The translations under genes were made by a program, and so were the position numbers. A model generated the notes under the pieces. The model did not search any database. It was not told the origin of the DNA and saw nothing but the letters and a program-made list of their open reading frames with translations. A stretch of 32,134 nucleotides of DNA from Kiritimatiellia bacterium (GTDB lineage: Bacteria; Verrucomicrobiota; Kiritimatiellia; RFP12; UBA1067). The DNA lies in assembly GCA_017427485.1 (NCBI GenBank), contig JAFRSR010000355.1:1-32134 (forward strand), written 5' to 3'. Below, piece by piece: positions 4,920-11,977 of the stretch; positions within the stretch are counted from its first letter, which is position 1, and the number at the start of each line of letters is the position of its first letter.

Positions 4920-5498
4920 TTACTTGATGAGCTCGGCGAGGTCGGAACGCAGGCGCTGCGCGAGCGCTCCGGAGATGGCGGCGTCGGTGAAGTCGTGCTC
5001 CACGCGGCCGTTGTCGAGCTTCACGGTGAAGCCGGCGCCGGTCATGTCGTCCGCCACCACCTTGACGCCGCTCTGCGCCTGCGCGGCGAGCTGGGCGCGG
5101 AGCGCGTCGACGAACTTGGACGCCGTGGCGACCTCGGCCGCGGCGGAGCCGGTCACGAGTTCCTTCACGGCGGCGGCCGCGAGCGGCACGGCCTCGTTCG
5201 CGAGTGCGGCGGTGACGTCCTGCGCGAGCAGCTTCGTGAGCAGCTTCGTGACGTCCTCCTTCACCTTCAGCACGGTGTCGCGCGCGGCCTGGCTGATCGT
5301 CTCGCGGGCGCGCGCGGCGTAGGCCGCGGCCTCCTCTTCGGCTTTCGCGCGGGTCGCGGCGGCTTCCTCCTCCGCGTTCTTCACGAGCGCGTTCGCCTCG
5401 TCTTTCGCCTTCGCGACGATCGCGGCGGCTTCGGCGTTCGCCTTGTCGACGCCGTCGCGCTGGATTTTCTCCAGGAGCTGCTGTAGTTCTTCGGACAT
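4920..5498 (-). CDS. atpE: V-type ATPase subunit E (peripheral stalk)
   Basis: A 192-residue protein whose first two fifths are a charged Ala/Glu/Lys coiled coil (ANAEAAAIVAKAKDEANAL onward), followed by a globular C-terminal domain ending in RLRSDLAELIK. This is the architecture of subunit E, which forms the peripheral stalk holding the catalytic head against the membrane sector. ATG 5498 has a strong GGAGGAA site at 5501-5507. It is the first gene of the operon E-DUF2764-A, with a near-consensus promoter 24 bp upstream of the start codon. Sequence similarity in subunit E is low in general, so the call rests on architecture plus operon position. Confidence 0.88.
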   Translation of the reverse strand: MSEELQQLLEKIQRDGVDKANAEAAAIVAKAKDEANALVKNAEEEAAATRAKAEEEAAAYAARARETISQAARDTVLKVKEDVTKLLTKLLAQDVTAALANEAVPLAAAAVKELVTGSAAAEVATASKFVDALRAQLAAQAQSGVKVVADDMTGAGFTVKLDNGRVEHDFTDAAISGALAQRLRSDLAELIK

Positions 5499-5616: not shown

Positions 5617-8247
5617 ATGAGAAAATGTCGTGTATTGCCAAGAATGTGTGAAAAGGGGCTGGCCCTTTTGCTGGCAGCTGCGATGGCGGCGCTGGCGAGC
5701 GACCCGCAGGAGGTGTTCGAGAATCCGCCGCAGAGCGCGAAGACGGGCGTCTGGTGGCATTGGATGGGGGGCAACGTCTCGAAGGAGGGGATCGTCAGGG
5801 ACCTCGACTGGTTCAAGGAAACCGGCATCGGCGCGGCGACGATCTTCGGCATGGCGGACGCCTGCACGCCGTGGGCGGCGTCTATCCGGAACAGTCCCAC
5901 CGCTGGGCTCGTCGCCTTTACGCCCGACTGGTGGGCGCTCGTGCGCTTCGCGTGCGTGGAGGCGGAGAGGCGTGGCATCGAGCTGGGCATTCACAACTGC
6001 CCCGGCTACACGTCGACGGGCGGACCGTGGATCCCGCCGCGTCTCGCCATGCGCGAACTCGTGTTCAATGTCACGAACGCGGAAACGCAGATCTCGCTCA
6101 AGGCGCACGCGCTCTTCCCGGTCGAGATCGGGGACACCGGCACGTTTGACCGTCCCGACGTGCCGAGCCGCCGCACCGATCTGCAGGAGATCGGCGTCGT
6201 GGACGGCATCCGCGTCCAGCATATCCCGATGGGCTCCTTCACCCAGCCGAACCAGTGGGAGGCGTTCGGACTGGAATGCGACAAGATGAACCCCGAGGCG
6301 GTGGCGTTTCACCTCGATCACGTGATCGGCGAGATGAAGAAACGCCTCGGCGACCAGGTGGGGCGCGGGCTCAGGTTCGTCCTGCTGGACAGCTACGAGG
6401 CGGGCAAGCCCTCGTGGACGCCGCGGATGCGCGAGGAGTTCCAGAAACGGCGCGGCTACGATCCGCTGCCGTTCCTGCCCGTCCTCGGCGGCTACAAGGT
6501 GTCCGCCGCGCCGGACGAGGCGTCGGTCAAGAAGTTCAAGGCGGACTACGCGCGCACGATCGCCGACCTCTACCGCGACGTGCTCTTCAAGATCATGCAC
6601 GAGAAGCTGAAGGCGGCCGGCCTCGAATTCGCCTGCGAACCGTACGGCGGGCCGTTCAGCACCCAGGAGTGTGCGGCGTACGTCGATCGGCTGATGACCG
6701 AGTTCTGGTTCCGTCCGAACCTGAACCGCAAGATCCCGGGCGTGCTCGGCTGGAACCAGTGGACGGGACCGGACGGGAAGCGCCACAACGTCGTGGAGGC
6801 GGAGGCGTTCACGTCGGGTCCGCCCGCCTGCAACTGGACCGAGACGCCGTACCAGCTGAAGGCCGTCGGCGACTCGCAGTTCTACCGCGGCGTCAACCGC
6901 ATGACGCTCCACACGTGTCCGCACCAGCCGTGGGACGATACAATCCTTCCCGGCAAGGTGATGGGACGCTGGGGCACGCACTTCGGGCGCACGCAGACAT
7001 GGGCCCGGAGCGGGAAGGGGTGGTTCGACTACCTCAACCGCTGCCAGGCGCTTCTCCAGTGGGGTGAACCGAGTCCGACGAGGATCGTCGGCAACAGCAT
7101 CACCCCGCGCGGCACGTTCCTCACGGCGCAGTGCCGCGAGTCGGACGGCACCTACGTGTTCTTCGTGATGAACCACTCCGACAAGCCCGCCTCGATGAAG
7201 ATGGGCCTGCCCGACGTGGGCAAGGTGCCGGAATGGTTCGATCCCGTGACGGGACGCATCACGCCGCTCGCGCTCGTGAAGGGACTCGTTCCGATCCAGC
7301 TCGCGCCGTGCGGGAGCGGGTTCCTCGTCCTGCGCAAGCCCGCCGGCTCGCTTGCACCCACGCGCGAGTCGGTCTATCTCCAGCGCCTGCCCAAGCCGTG
7401 CAGCGGCCCGGCCGCCGCGACGGTCATGGGGCCGTGGCAGATCCGCTTCGGCGACGTTGAAATCACGAGCAAGGATCTCTTCGATTGGACGACGAGCGAC
7501 AACCCGCAGATCAAGTACTTCAGCGGCACGGCGAAATACCGCACCACGTTCACGTACGCGGCGGATGCGGCGGCGGACGTCATCTCGCTGGGAAACTGCA
7601 ACGGACAGATCGCGAAGGTCGTCCTCAACGGCGTGGACGCGGGAACCGTCTGGTGCGCGCCGTACGAAATCCTCTTGTCGCCGGGCGCGGTGCGGCGGGG
7701 CGAGAACACGCTGGAGATCGAGTTCACGAACGTGTGGGCGAACCGGCTCATCGGCGACGAGCAGGAGCCGCCCGATTGCGAGTTCGTCGAGCAGAAGGCG
7801 TTCAAGAACGCAGGCGGCACGTACCTGGCGCGCTTCCCGGACTGGTTCAAGGACGGCCTCTCCGCGCGTTCGTCCAAAGGTCGCACGTGCTTCACGGACT
7901 GGAACTACTTCACGAAGGATTCCAAGCTCGTTCCCTCCGGTCTCCTCGGCCCTGTCCGATTTTACGGTTTGGATGAACCGCAAGTCAAAAACTTAACCAG
8001 CCAGTTGCCTGACTGGCGGGAAGAAGATGTTAGACAGGATTACAGGATTACGAGGATTAACAGGATTCTTTATAGTGGTTGGCAGATTGATTGCAGTAGG
8101 TACAATTTAGACAGGATTACAGGATTTACAAGATTAACAGGATTGTTTCCTGAATCACAAAATCCTGTAAATCCTGACAATCCTGTAATCCTGTCAAAAC
8201 AAACGAGCTGCTCATTTTGGAGATTCGGCAGTCAATCAGCTAACTAG
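5617..8247 (+). CDS. Exported GH106-like alpha-L-rhamnosidase with a repeat-derived C-terminal tail
   Basis: An 876-residue protein with a signal peptide (charged start, then LALLLAAAMAALA). The mature region opens with FENPPQSAKTGVWWHWMGGNVSKEG, split by the family hallmarks VWWHWMGGN, GIGAATIFGM, LGIHNCPGYTSTGGPW and LDSYEAGKPSWTPRMREEF, which are characteristic of GH106 enzymes that release alpha-L-rhamnose from plant or bacterial glycans. A C-terminal beta-sandwich (KVVLNGVDAGTVWCAPYEI, NTLEIEFTNVWANRLIGDE) matches the galactose-binding-like domain of this family. The family-like sequence ends at about LLGPVRFYGLDEP; the last 88 residues or so (from base 7981) are encoded by AT-rich repeat DNA and are unlikely to be functional sequence. 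The start is uncertain: ATG 5617 would be leaderless given the promoter, and ATG 5644 lacks an SD. Confidence 0.85.
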   Translation: MRKCRVLPRMCEKGLALLLAAAMAALASDPQEVFENPPQSAKTGVWWHWMGGNVSKEGIVRDLDWFKETGIGAATIFGMADACTPWAASIRNSPTAGLVAFTPDWWALVRFACVEAERRGIELGIHNCPGYTSTGGPWIPPRLAMRELVFNVTNAETQISLKAHALFPVEIGDTGTFDRPDVPSRRTDLQEIGVVDGIRVQHIPMGSFTQPNQWEAFGLECDKMNPEAVAFHLDHVIGEMKKRLGDQVGRGLRFVLLDSYEAGKPSWTPRMREEFQKRRGYDPLPFLPVLGGYKVSAAPDEASVKKFKADYARTIADLYRDVLFKIMHEKLKAAGLEFACEPYGGPFSTQECAAYVDRLMTEFWFRPNLNRKIPGVLGWNQWTGPDGKRHNVVEAEAFTSGPPACNWTETPYQLKAVGDSQFYRGVNRMTLHTCPHQPWDDTILPGKVMGRWGTHFGRTQTWARSGKGWFDYLNRCQALLQWGEPSPTRIVGNSITPRGTFLTAQCRESDGTYVFFVMNHSDKPASMKMGLPDVGKVPEWFDPVTGRITPLALVKGLVPIQLAPCGSGFLVLRKPAGSLAPTRESVYLQRLPKPCSGPAAATVMGPWQIRFGDVEITSKDLFDWTTSDNPQIKYFSGTAKYRTTFTYAADAAADVISLGNCNGQIAKVVLNGVDAGTVWCAPYEILLSPGAVRRGENTLEIEFTNVWANRLIGDEQEPPDCEFVEQKAFKNAGGTYLARFPDWFKDGLSARSSKGRTCFTDWNYFTKDSKLVPSGLLGPVRFYGLDEPQVKNLTSQLPDWREEDVRQDYRITRINRILYSGWQIDCSRYNLDRITGFTRLTGLFPESQNPVNPDNPVILSKQTSCSFWRFGSQSAN

Positions 8248-8282
8248 TTTCTCACAAATCCCGTAAATCTTGTAATCCTGTC
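8033..8282. repeat. ACAGGATT repeat cluster: two direct and two inverted arrays
   Basis: Four arrays built from 8-10 bp units around ACAGGATT: 8033-8067 and 8110-8144 in direct orientation, 8161-8195 and 8257-8282 inverted. By eye the first two share 31 of 35 bases, and the third is complementary to the second at 31 of 35 positions across a 16-nt loop, so RNA or single-stranded DNA could form a long hairpin. The block is strikingly AT-rich against its surroundings, begins inside the 3' end of the GH106-like frame and ends 33 bp before the next gene. Similar AGGATT-type repeats occur in environmental PVC-group genomes; no transposase is present here. Confidence 0.85.
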
Positions 8283-8326
8283 TGAAAACCCGAACAGTTT
8301 AATTTGAAAACAATATGAGGTCATGT

Positions 8327-9649
8327 ATGAAGTTATTGACGAGTTGGGGGCTGGTTGCGGTCTCGGTGGCGGCGAACGCGGCGGCTTTGCCGGACGAGAC
8401 GTGCGACGTGGCCGTGGTCGGCGGCGGCGCCGCTGGCGTGGCCGCCGCCGTGCAGAGCGGACGCGCCGGCGCGCGGACCGTGCTGATCGAGCAGGGACAC
8501 CAGGTGGGCGGCAACATGACGAGCGGCGGCGTCAACTTCCCCGGGCTGTTCCACGCGTGGGGCCGGCAGGTGATCGACGGCGTCGGCTGGGAGATCGTGA
8601 CCAACTGCGTGGCGCTTGACGGCCGCACGCTGCCGGATTTCACGAAGCCGACGGGACGCCAGCACTGGCGCCATCAGGTGACGGTCAACATCCCGCTGTA
8701 CGTGGCGCTCGCGGAGGAGGCGCTGACGAAGGCCGGCGTCACGATCCATTACCACGCCGCGCCGACGCGCATCGTACGGGACGGCGAGTGGTGGAAAATC
8801 TCCGTGGCGGCCGTCGGCGACACGCGCACGGTCACGTGCCGCCAGATCGTCGACTGCACGGGGAACGGCGCCGTGGCGTCGCTGCTGGGGCTGGAGCGCA
8901 TGCGGGAGAGCACGTGCCAGCCGGGTTCGTTCGTCTACAAGATATCCCCGGAGACACCGCTCGACGCGCTCGACGCGGAGGCGCTGGAGGCGGCCCGCGC
9001 GAAGGCCGTGATGGAAGGGCGTCTCCTCCCGAACGACACGCGCGCCGGCGTGATGGGCTTTTTGCGTCGGGGCGGCGACACCGCCAACTACATTGACGAC
9101 GCCGACAACTCCACGGCCGACCTGCGCACGCAGACGAACCTGCGCGGACGGGCCTCGATGCTCAGGATGTACCGCTTCCTGAAGTCGCTGCCGGGACTGG
9201 GGAACGTGCGGCTGCTGGCCATGTCGCCGGAGGTGGGCGTGCGGGAAACGTTCCGCGTGCGCGGGGAATACGTCGTCACGCACGAGGACTACACCTCCGG
9301 GCGGACGTACGCGGATTCGGTCTGCTACGCGTTCTACCCGATCGACCTCCACGACAAGGTGAGCGGCATACGTCCCGCGCACCTGAAGGAGGGCATGGTG
9401 GCAACCGTTCCGCTGCGCGCGCTCGTGGTCAAGGGCGTGGACGGCGTGCTCGTGGCCGGCCGATGCGTGAGCAGCGACCGCCTGGCGAACTCGGCGCTGC
9501 GTGTGGAGGCGACGTGCATGGCGACGGGACAGGCGGCCGGCGCGGCCGCCGCCCTCGCCGCGCGGCACAAAACGACCGCCCTGAAAATCGACTTCGGCGA
9601 ACTGGCCGCGCTTCTCCGCGCCCACCGAGCCATCGTCCCGGGCATGTAA
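8327..9649 (+). CDS. Exported FAD-dependent oxidoreductase (FAD_oxidored family)
   Basis: A 440-residue protein with a short signal peptide (MKLLTSWGLVAVSVAANAAA). It carries the dinucleotide motif VAVVGGGAAGVAAA, then VLIEQGHQVGGNMTSGG, a mid-protein CTGNGAVASLLG, and the closing FAD motif GVLVAGRCVSSDRLANSALR followed by ATGQAAGAAAAL. This is the family of GxGxxG flavoproteins often found exported and beside glycan-degradation genes in Verrucomicrobia, Planctomycetes and Lentisphaerae; the substrate is not known. ATG 8327 is preferred over in-frame ATG 8315 because GAGG (8317-8320) lies 6 nt before it. No convincing promoter is visible in the repeat-rich leader, so it may be read through from the GH106-like gene. 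Confidence 0.87.
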   Translation: MKLLTSWGLVAVSVAANAAALPDETCDVAVVGGGAAGVAAAVQSGRAGARTVLIEQGHQVGGNMTSGGVNFPGLFHAWGRQVIDGVGWEIVTNCVALDGRTLPDFTKPTGRQHWRHQVTVNIPLYVALAEEALTKAGVTIHYHAAPTRIVRDGEWWKISVAAVGDTRTVTCRQIVDCTGNGAVASLLGLERMRESTCQPGSFVYKISPETPLDALDAEALEAARAKAVMEGRLLPNDTRAGVMGFLRRGGDTANYIDDADNSTADLRTQTNLRGRASMLRMYRFLKSLPGLGNVRLLAMSPEVGVRETFRVRGEYVVTHEDYTSGRTYADSVCYAFYPIDLHDKVSGIRPAHLKEGMVATVPLRALVVKGVDGVLVAGRCVSSDRLANSALRVEATCMATGQAAGAAAALAARHKTTALKIDFGELAALLRAHRAIVPGM

Positions 9650-9766: not shown

Positions 9767-11977
9767 ATGAAAAAACTGTGTCTTGCGGCGGCGATTGCCG
9801 CCAGCCTCGCGTGCGTGCGCACGTACGCGCTGCTCGAAGTGAGCGGCGACTACACGATAACTACAGGTACGATTGACGTGCCATTGGTGTTCACGGGCGA
9901 CGCCAACCTCACCATCGCGGAGAACGTCGGGTCGTCCACGTCCCTCGGCGTGTTCCTCGGCACCGTCACGAACGACGGACACAACGTGACGATCAACATG
10001 GAGAGCGGCTGCAAGGCGCAAGTCAACTGGTTCCAGAACCTGAACGGTGCCACCATGAAGATCAACTTCAAGGGCGGCAGGTTCACGGACGGTGGCGGCT
10101 GGGGATCGCGCTGGTTCAAGACACCTGCGGGATGTACGGTGGAATTGGCGTCAGTGGACGGCAACAACATCTGGATCACGCATCCGAACTCGCAGCACAA
10201 GTATCTCAACGATGGCGACGGGCGCGTGTTCACGTCCGGCTCGGGCAAGTTCCTGGTGCAGACGGCGAACATCCACAACGGAACGCTGCTGTACTTCCGG
10301 GCCAACATTCCAAGTACGAATTATTTCCACACGGGCGGCACAACTTTCTCCGGCAACAGTGATAGCAACGGTGGCTGGTTTACATTCACGGGGAACAATC
10401 AGTTCCCTCCGGGACGGGTGGAGATCGGGCGTGCGGCAAACGCGGGCGGCGCGTGGGTGAACCTCGACGGCAAGTCGCAGACGGCGGAGCAGGTCGTTCG
10501 CGTCGGCTCGTATGGCTGCATCACGAATACGAGTTCCACGGCGGGCACGCTCGTATTCAGCAAGGCTGATTCGTTGCTGGATTGTCCTGTGCAGGGCAAC
10601 GTGGTCGTGCAGAAGACGGGCTCGTCCACTACGCTCACGGTGAAGCGCGGCCCCATCTCCACGCTTGAGTTGCGGGAGGGCATGGTGCTCGTGAAGCCGG
10701 ATACGGCGGGAACAACGGTCAAGGTTGGCAGACTGCGCGTCTACAGCGGCGCGACGCTGACGGTAGACGGGTGCATACTCGAAGCGGATGCGGCGGACAT
10801 CGGCTTGAGCGCGACGCTAACGTGCGTGAACGGCGGCCGGTTGCGAATCTCGGTGGCGGCGAACACGACGAACGTGATGGATGCGGCCAGTTGGAGCGGC
10901 GGTTCGCTGGAGAAGACGGGCGCGGGCACGGTCGGTCTGGGCACGGACACCGCTCTGGCTCTGACCGGTTTCAACGTGGCGGAAGGTACGCTCCGGTTGG
11001 GACGCCTCGGCGTCACCAACCGCTTCTGGCGCGTGTCGATCAAAAGAACGAACAACGGCGGCAAGCTGGCATTGGGGCCGTTCCGCCTCTACGACCGCGA
11101 CAACAACATGACGGACGGAGGTACTTACAACGGCGGCGACGGAAACGGCACCTATACAGACAAGTCCTCAGCGGGCATCTCGGCCAGCCAGCTGGCGGCG
11201 AAACAGTTCATCTGCTCGCGGACGGACTATGAGCCGAACAGGAACCAGAGCGGCAGCAACTATCGCCCGCCGTACGCCATGTTTGGTTCATCAACCGTGT
11301 TCAGCTGCATGTTCGTCAATGCGCCGAGTCCTTCGGTTGACAATCCGGCAAGCTGGGTGGTGATGACCTATCGCATTCCGGACACGTATGCAGTCACTCA
11401 CGGCTACGACCCGAAGTCGCAGTGGGAAGGCGTGAACAACCATCCCGGCACGTGGAGCATCGAGTCCAGCCCCGATGGCACGGACGGAAGCTGGGAACTG
11501 GTCGATGAGAGGAGCGGACAGGCTGCCGCGAACGGGCAGACGTGGTATCATGGCGGAAACAACGGTACGTCGGGCAATCCGTCGTCGTGGGATCCCTACA
11601 CCTTCCAGTCGCTCCGCAGGGGCGGCGGCATCTCGCCGGCGGCGAACGTGCAGGTGGCGGCAGGAGCGACACTGGACGCGACGCTGGTGGACGGCGGGCA
11701 GGCGGTGTCGAGCCTGACCGTGGACTATACGGCAGGCGGCGGAACGCTGAAGGGCGTGAAGTTCGCGGCGGTCGGCACGCTGAACCTCGTGAACGTGCCG
11801 GCCGGCACGAAGCTCTCGGAATACGCGGTGCCGCTGACGTTCGAGGGCGCCGGCGACACGTCGAACGCCCGGACCTGGTCGGTGCAGGTGGATGGCGTGG
11901 CGACCCGCGCCAAGCTGAAGTGGCAGGACGGCGGCCTCTTCGTGCCCAGCGCCGGCACGATCGTGACTTTCCGCTAG
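9767..11977 (+). CDS. Exported beta-strand-rich surface protein with discoidin-like module and FR C-terminus
   Basis: A 736-residue protein of unknown function with a signal peptide (MKKLCLAAAIAASLACVRTYA). Residues of about 25-420 are Gly/Thr/Val-rich beta repeats in the style of autotransporter-associated strands (GDYTITTGTIDVPLVFTGD, SLEKTGAGTVGLG, AEGTLRLGRLG). A module from about 425 to 620 (FWRVSIKRTN, FRLYDRDNN, ASWVVMTYRIPDTYAVTHGYD, WSIESSPDGTDGSWELVDER) looks like an F5/8 type C (discoidin) carbohydrate-binding fold. The end is SAGTIVTFR-stop, matching two other proteins of the window. The SD AAGGAG is at 9752-9757, 9 nt before ATG. It has its own promoter. Likely at the cell surface, perhaps binding or organising a glycan; no catalytic motif is seen. 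Confidence 0.8.
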   Translation: MKKLCLAAAIAASLACVRTYALLEVSGDYTITTGTIDVPLVFTGDANLTIAENVGSSTSLGVFLGTVTNDGHNVTINMESGCKAQVNWFQNLNGATMKINFKGGRFTDGGGWGSRWFKTPAGCTVELASVDGNNIWITHPNSQHKYLNDGDGRVFTSGSGKFLVQTANIHNGTLLYFRANIPSTNYFHTGGTTFSGNSDSNGGWFTFTGNNQFPPGRVEIGRAANAGGAWVNLDGKSQTAEQVVRVGSYGCITNTSSTAGTLVFSKADSLLDCPVQGNVVVQKTGSSTTLTVKRGPISTLELREGMVLVKPDTAGTTVKVGRLRVYSGATLTVDGCILEADAADIGLSATLTCVNGGRLRISVAANTTNVMDAASWSGGSLEKTGAGTVGLGTDTALALTGFNVAEGTLRLGRLGVTNRFWRVSIKRTNNGGKLALGPFRLYDRDNNMTDGGTYNGGDGNGTYTDKSSAGISASQLAAKQFICSRTDYEPNRNQSGSNYRPPYAMFGSSTVFSCMFVNAPSPSVDNPASWVVMTYRIPDTYAVTHGYDPKSQWEGVNNHPGTWSIESSPDGTDGSWELVDERSGQAAANGQTWYHGGNNGTSGNPSSWDPYTFQSLRRGGGISPAANVQVAAGATLDATLVDGGQAVSSLTVDYTAGGGTLKGVKFAAVGTLNLVNVPAGTKLSEYAVPLTFEGAGDTSNARTWSVQVDGVATRAKLKWQDGGLFVPSAGTIVTFR

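Follow-up and report, generated by a model that had tools for sequence, protein, structure and literature searches.

The analysed stretch of DNA (hereafter the window) comprises 32,134 nucleotides of a Kiritimatiellia bacterium, the assembly of which spans 6.3 Mb in 446 contigs, with 90% completeness and 7% contamination. Two forward-strand genes, a GH106 alpha-L-rhamnosidase-like open reading frame (PF17132; 5617-8247) and an FAD-dependent oxidoreductase gene (PF12831; 8315-9649), border a junction occupied by two hairpins, one nested within the other. The inner hairpin (8110-8195) consists of inverted 35-nt arms (8110-8144 and 8161-8195) around a 16-nt loop, each arm carrying four CAGGATT units spaced by 1, 2 and 2 nt. 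It belongs to a larger forward-strand element (8074-8250) of the flank subfamily termed B below, with extra outer inverted repeats at 8078-8094 and 8228-8244 (GTTGGCAGATTGATTGC and GCAGTCAATCAGCTAAC). This B element is inserted in the loop of the outer hairpin, formed by a left arm on the forward strand (8033-8067) and a shorter, three-unit right arm on the reverse strand (8257-8282), 33 nt past which the oxidoreductase gene starts. The GH106 frame extends across the left arm of the outer hairpin and the entire inner hairpin, so that its tail, the last ~72 codons from ~8030, is repeat-derived (...RQDYRITRINRI...NPVNPDNPVILSK...).

The preliminary description of this locus had reported complementarity at 31 of the 35 arm positions across a 16-nt loop, arms built as strings of short units, a direct copy at 8033-8067, a partial inverted copy at 8257-8282, and a base composition unlike that of the remaining window. 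The arm pairing, the loop and the partial inverted copy were recovered as described; the strings resolved into the four CAGGATT units of each arm, the direct copy proved 88% identical over 42 nt, and the local GC content was ~0.50, compared with 0.60-0.72 across most of the window. A repeat finder stretched the inner arms to 8106-8144 and 8161-8199 (39 nt, 87% complementary), and 8033-8067 and 8257-8282 pair mutually as well as with the inner arms. The palindrome is not a product of chance, since the DNA fold of 8106-8199 reached -26.1 kcal/mol against -7.3 for shuffled sequences (z = -8) and the RNA fold of 8030-8290 gave z = -13. The Rfam matches on the palindrome, mostly microRNA models plus one pseudoknot model, were all sub-threshold and were treated as chance.

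Elsewhere in the window, three large secreted-looking reading frames, with C-termini at 11977, 22950 and 30602, share a common tail of the form G(T/M)xxxFR (GTIVTFR, GTVVIFR and GMTILFR). The same tail, with the appearance of a C-terminal sorting signal, occurs upstream of hairpins in L127 and L152 (GTTVLFR and GTMVIFR).

Genomic copies, arm design and insertion sites

The 17-mer GACAGGATTACAGGATT gave 35 forward and 36 reverse matches in the same genome with <=2 mismatches, against none for a reversed-word control. These correspond to about 32 full hairpins, mostly 80-86 bp long, which are placed in gene junctions, often near a start codon, and display two flank subfamilies recurring at unrelated loci. 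Subfamily A flanks read ATGAGGATAACTTCTGAG...TCAAGTTATAGGCAAG, while subfamily B, comprising the window copy and about nine others, is distinguished by the extra outer inverted repeats (TGGTTGGCTGATTGATTGG.../...CAGTCAATCAGCTAACC), the flanks of the further copies being 85-92% alike over 130-180 bp. A single genomic copy, which would have refuted the idea of an element, is thereby excluded.

Two loci depart from this simple form. At L142 4987-6970 (G000 C254:27286-29269), the arms of one hairpin lie 1.9 kb apart, with loop and right-arm sequence (GATT..GAAACAATCC..TAATCTTG) at both ends of an insert that contains further palindromes. At L144 ~5037-5118, TTTCCCAGTTAGC occurs as a direct copy on either side of the hairpin, along with a GCCGCCAAGATGGCGGC palindrome, which may indicate that additional small elements are nested here.

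Pairing was compared in 29 copies aligned in register. At the positions of the four CAGGATT units per arm, 771 of 812 pair (95%), and 27 of the 29 copies pair at the first spacer (1 nt), whereas the two 2-nt spacers pair at 29 of 116 positions, i.e., at chance. Conservation concerns the unit and the inverted layout of the units rather than pairing along the stem, and the arms thus resemble inverted binding-site arrays rather than a stem maintained by pairing. Such a design points to a protein that reads the unit, although this is an inference made without binding data. In a crude test, no within-copy co-variation of the arms was seen; similarity was lower within than between copies because the spacers are fixed and differ between the left and the right arm, and there was consequently no sign of compensatory change.

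For five hairpin sites, the two flanks were joined and looked for in 16 genomes of the genus. G009 and G013 lack the C170 hairpin, and G005 holds a different unit array at that site; G011, G013 and G014 lack the C76 hairpin together with its A flanks, which therefore belong to the element; the C160 site carries other repeats in G005 and G006. As hairpins are absent or replaced by other repeats at sister-species sites, the elements have inserted into gene junctions or replaced sequence there. Identity at the empty sites compared is 76-89%, some of these sites being occupied by other repeat arrays, and the exact element ends are not fixed. The hairpins meet two criteria of MITEs, being short, multicopy inverted repeats without a transposase gene and showing insertion polymorphism among relatives (C170 and C76 sites). 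With ~32 genomic hairpins and orthologous junctions devoid of them in sister species, the earlier proposal of a non-autonomous mobile or structured element is supported.

GxxExxY genes enclosed by unit arms

The 17-mer was found in at least 15 phyla, as named in the sequence records, and 64 of the 113 loci had an inverted partner within 800 bp (none with the reversed motif); some single matches are coding coincidences. At several of these loci, ACAGGATT arms were observed to enclose a GxxExxY gene: L048 (Lentisphaerota), L055 (Spirosoma oryzae), L080 (Fidelibacterota) and L081 (Bacteroidota). Arms of the same ACAGGAT-class unit surround a GxxExxY gene in the genus-mates G003 (L224), G004 (L221) and G005 (L236), where the frame runs into the 3' arm (NPVNPVNPVILS), and the G004 and G005 elements have four units per arm, like the window hairpin. 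The window arms satisfy both arm criteria of such elements, as their unit is identical to that of the ACAGGAT-class GxxExxY lineage and they are inverted, multi-unit arms with 1-3 nt spacers. The GxxExxY gene itself is missing between them, the inner loop being only 16 nt long and the outer one holding the nested B element; the window copies are therefore termed derivatives rather than full members. Gene remnants, namely truncated GxxExxY genes between arms, were detected in G033 and G035, and appear to connect the full and gene-less forms, as expected for a series leading from full element to hairpin.

The association was quantified as the best inverted repeat between the 350-nt flanks of a gene, with a score threshold of >=14. 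This was reached by 95% of 91 GxxExxY genes from the same genome and its relatives, against 5% of mismatched flank pairs, 5% of random positions, and 4% of the ParE toxin genes of the same relatives, used as a control gene family; the relatives are not independent data points. In other phyla, 83% of 29 GxxExxY genes lie between inverted flanks (control, 3%); their genomes were picked for carrying the 17-mer, and most of the arms found have other units. The unit varies between elements (CGCAGAG, CACGGAA, CGCAAAG, CGCGAAT and CATGATT, among others) and is common within one element, with arm autocorrelation peaking at 8-10 nt. The family is present in 47 of 59 related genomes and in 21 of 24 genomes of other phyla, the latter chosen for carrying the repeat.

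Whole GxxExxY elements were compared with orthologous sites at three of eight prepared sites (L221, L155 and L157). G000 and G007 lack the ACAGGATT-armed element of L221, G006 lacks that of L155, and G001, G004 and G006 lack that of L157. At element-free sites in relatives (L380 ~1680-1720, L383 ~1690-1740, L347 ~1740-1790), the junction is filled by different arrays of short, heptamer-like tandem repeats (TCATTCG, CTCTTCA and GGGACA, for example), which are perhaps scars or single arms.

Unit sequence was observed to follow protein lineage. Among 83 GxxExxY proteins under 75% identity, arm similarity correlated with protein identity (Mantel r = 0.25, exceeding all 500 permutations), similar arms occurring in 20% of pairs at 50-60% protein identity versus 0.7% at 25-40%. 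In a 105-protein tree, the 14 members that have ACAGGAT arms required 4 changes, compared with 13.3 for shuffled labels (0/500), and grouped across phyla (Kiritimatiellota, Lentisphaerota, Bacteroidota, Fidelibacterota and others) with a single interloper, L205, whose ACATGAT arms are a one-base variant. Two ACAGGAT labels were set by hand (L231, in the tree, with a GCCAGGATTACTGGATT arm, and L321 if present). The simplest reading of this coupling would be recognition of the unit by the GxxExxY protein, which is inferred from sequence comparison in the absence of binding data. It could alternatively reflect co-inheritance of the whole element, which is less expected because non-coding arms should, we infer, diverge at such protein distances.

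The GxxExxY family (matches to Pfam PF13366, PDDEXK_3, E ~1e-41, and to TIGR04256) is common in environmental bacteria and almost unstudied: in the literature searched, its name appears in two papers and its Pfam accession in one. Its predicted catalytic motif (E, D, E-x-K) is intact, being 98-100% conserved in the aligned set. An AlphaFold2 model (pLDDT 83, with only five sequences; the other four models 47-66) has the element order H-H-E-E-E-H-E of PD-(D/E)XK proteins, and the nearest solved folds are Cas4 SSO0001 (Z 9.7), AF1548 (Z 9.0) and the Holliday-junction resolvase Hjc (Z 7.7). These moderate Z values indicate fold, not function. By sequence, the PDB yielded no convincing homologue. 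GxxExxY is described here as a predicted, uncharacterised PD-(D/E)XK nuclease-like protein.

An ACAGGAT-class GxxExxY gene was not found in the window's own assembly (90% complete), where each of the six GxxExxY genes has arms of a different kind. It is thus unproven that the hairpins are currently mobile in trans, and they may be relics or may have been moved by a lost or unassembled gene. No obvious homology was seen by eye between the hairpin loops and the inner ends of the gene element. A Fisher test of ACAGGATT arm number against ACAGGAT-class gene presence in 59 genomes returned p = 1e-4, but is not relied on because the gene count covered only inspected loci. A phage origin was rejected: no match was obtained in a phage collection, the 17-mer occurred in only 8 of 2.9 million viral contigs, and a single-sequence query found no GxxExxY relative among these viral sequences.

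Origin of the hairpins and related elements

The explanation we favour, and consider probable without regarding it as settled, is that the window structure represents two nested, gene-less, non-autonomous (MITE-like) copies of a GxxExxY palindromic mobile element moved by a unit-reading nuclease. Their identity as GxxExxY-type derivatives is well supported; descent from an ACAGGAT-class element in particular, and a nuclease that drives mobility, are inferred. The full element spans ~450-750 bp and has the GxxExxY gene between inverted arms; in each arm a ~7-nt unit (here CAGGATT) is repeated two to four times, with spacers of 1-3 nt. The nuclease would read the inverted units as a series of binding sites and cut or nick there, or at the cruciform; the palindrome would then be copied by repair or replication to gene junctions elsewhere. 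Copies with internal deletions would retain the arms, being moved in trans or persisting as relics.

Like MITEs, the hairpins are short, gene-less, multicopy inverted repeats located between genes, and they have both an apparent parent that carries a gene and intermediates with internal deletions. They differ in that this parent encodes a GxxExxY PD-(D/E)XK protein instead of a DDE or HUH transposase, in that the arms are 7-nt unit arrays, and in that no target duplication has been shown. A PD-(D/E)XK_2 (PF12784) origin has been suggested for the hupL MITE of Thiomargarita (PMC4853749), although that family is different from GxxExxY.

A second gene family is found in arms of the same style. 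Of 28 genes for four-helix bundle proteins (TIGR02436; S23/IVP-like) in the same genomes, 89% are enclosed by inverted arms, versus 6% for a control, and the repeats in these arms recur strictly every 7 nt (autocorrelation 0.63 at lag 7 and 0.59 at lag 14). Judged by sequence, they would form a second class parallel to the GxxExxY elements. The four-helix loci L286-L315, L376, L378 and L379 have inverted arms of 7-nt tandem repeats and lie outside rRNA where tested. One conserved gene junction holds a GxxExxY element in G015, a four-helix element in G000 and another GxxExxY element in G037. Different elements and units at the same junction across species were noted at L261 889-1473, L303 1398-1892 and L274 846-1514, and also at L254 939-1490 and L311 1334-1883, as if certain junctions acted as hot spots. 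For L261, L303 and L274, an intervening sequence (IVS) of rRNA was ruled out, as Rfam detected no rRNA.

The finding of an unrelated family in such arms is also an argument for regarding GxxExxY as a passenger or accessory gene, with palindromes that arise and spread through host recombination or through replication slippage with template switching, and genes captured in their loops. Gene-free unit arrays at the same junctions in related species, and tandem hairpin arrays in some Deltaproteobacteria MAGs, are compatible with this. We nevertheless judge it unlikely: array geometry differs by gene family (strict 7-nt period for four-helix genes, 8-10 nt for GxxExxY), unit sequence tracks the GxxExxY lineage across phyla, and ParE genes are not enclosed by arms.

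It is more doubtful still that the hairpin acts as RNA, as an operon-internal structural or RNase III-processed element kept for regulation in the manner of a 23S rRNA IVS. The very stable predicted RNA fold and the position in gene junctions, often near a start codon, would suit such a role, but pairing itself is not conserved in the 2-nt spacers, arm co-variation was not seen in the crude test, copies vary between sister species, and Rfam offered sub-threshold models only. The 23S rRNA IVS of Coxiella, which contains an S23p ORF, has GACAGAT heptameric repeats beside the ORF and 28-bp terminal inverted repeats (PMC4990558). GxxExxY elements share with it the stem-loop, the small ORF in the loop and the heptameric repeats; however, the IVS is located within rRNA, its product being a four-helix S23 protein, whereas GxxExxY elements lie at protein-gene junctions, and the closer match is provided by the four-helix elements of relatives. 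In the window, Rfam found no rRNA at 7900-8400 and the flanks are protein genes, so that the location criterion of an IVS is not met, and the 16-nt inner loop contains no S23/four-helix ORF.

Least plausible, and in our view highly improbable, is a REP/REPIN-like repeat mobilised by a RAYT (Y1 tyrosine HUH transposase) whose gene lies at another genomic site: REPs are likewise short, many-copy intergenic palindromes, reported in the PVC superphylum too (PMC3733652), and the genome has seven Y1_Tnp matches, but none of the seven loci carries the ACAGGATT unit array, which speaks against RAYT mobilisation, no copy has a RAYT beside it, no GTAG or CGTC tag is conserved in the flanks of 32 copies, the arms are multi-unit arrays rather than single 20-40 bp stems, and the same arms border GxxExxY instead of RAYT.

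Extending the favoured GxxExxY-derivative reading beyond this locus, we tentatively propose, as a serious possibility that falls short of a probable one, a widespread class of selfish DNA in many phyla. In it, a 110-130 aa PD-(D/E)XK protein, GxxExxY, would move a palindrome via heptamer arrays without any transposase, unit and nuclease would co-evolve, four-helix (S23-like) elements with strict 7-nt arrays would form a sister class, and gene-less hairpins would be its MITEs. The target of each GxxExxY could then be read from its own flanks. If the flanking arrays are indeed the target, the gene declares its own recognition site, making the function of a nuclease family of unknown role directly testable; in Kiritimatiellota and related lineages, and probably in other phyla too, this would also account for a large class of intergenic palindromes and for repeat-derived tails of proteins (...NPVNPVNPVILS). 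Neither such an element nor the repeat sequence itself was found in the literature searched. The TAACTGA heptamers of Beggiatoaceae and cyanobacteria, for which a regulatory role was proposed, resemble the window arrays in being intergenic, tandem and patchy across phyla (PMC4679880), but are direct repeats, and a nuclease gene between inverted arms was not found in the parts consulted.

Finally, ACAGGATT hairpins also occur as tandem arrays in two Deltaproteobacteria MAGs (L010 25-601 and L021 50-628) and in a Prevotellaceae MAG (L085 2191-2620), with regular periods, of 112 and ~186 nt, in L010 and L021.
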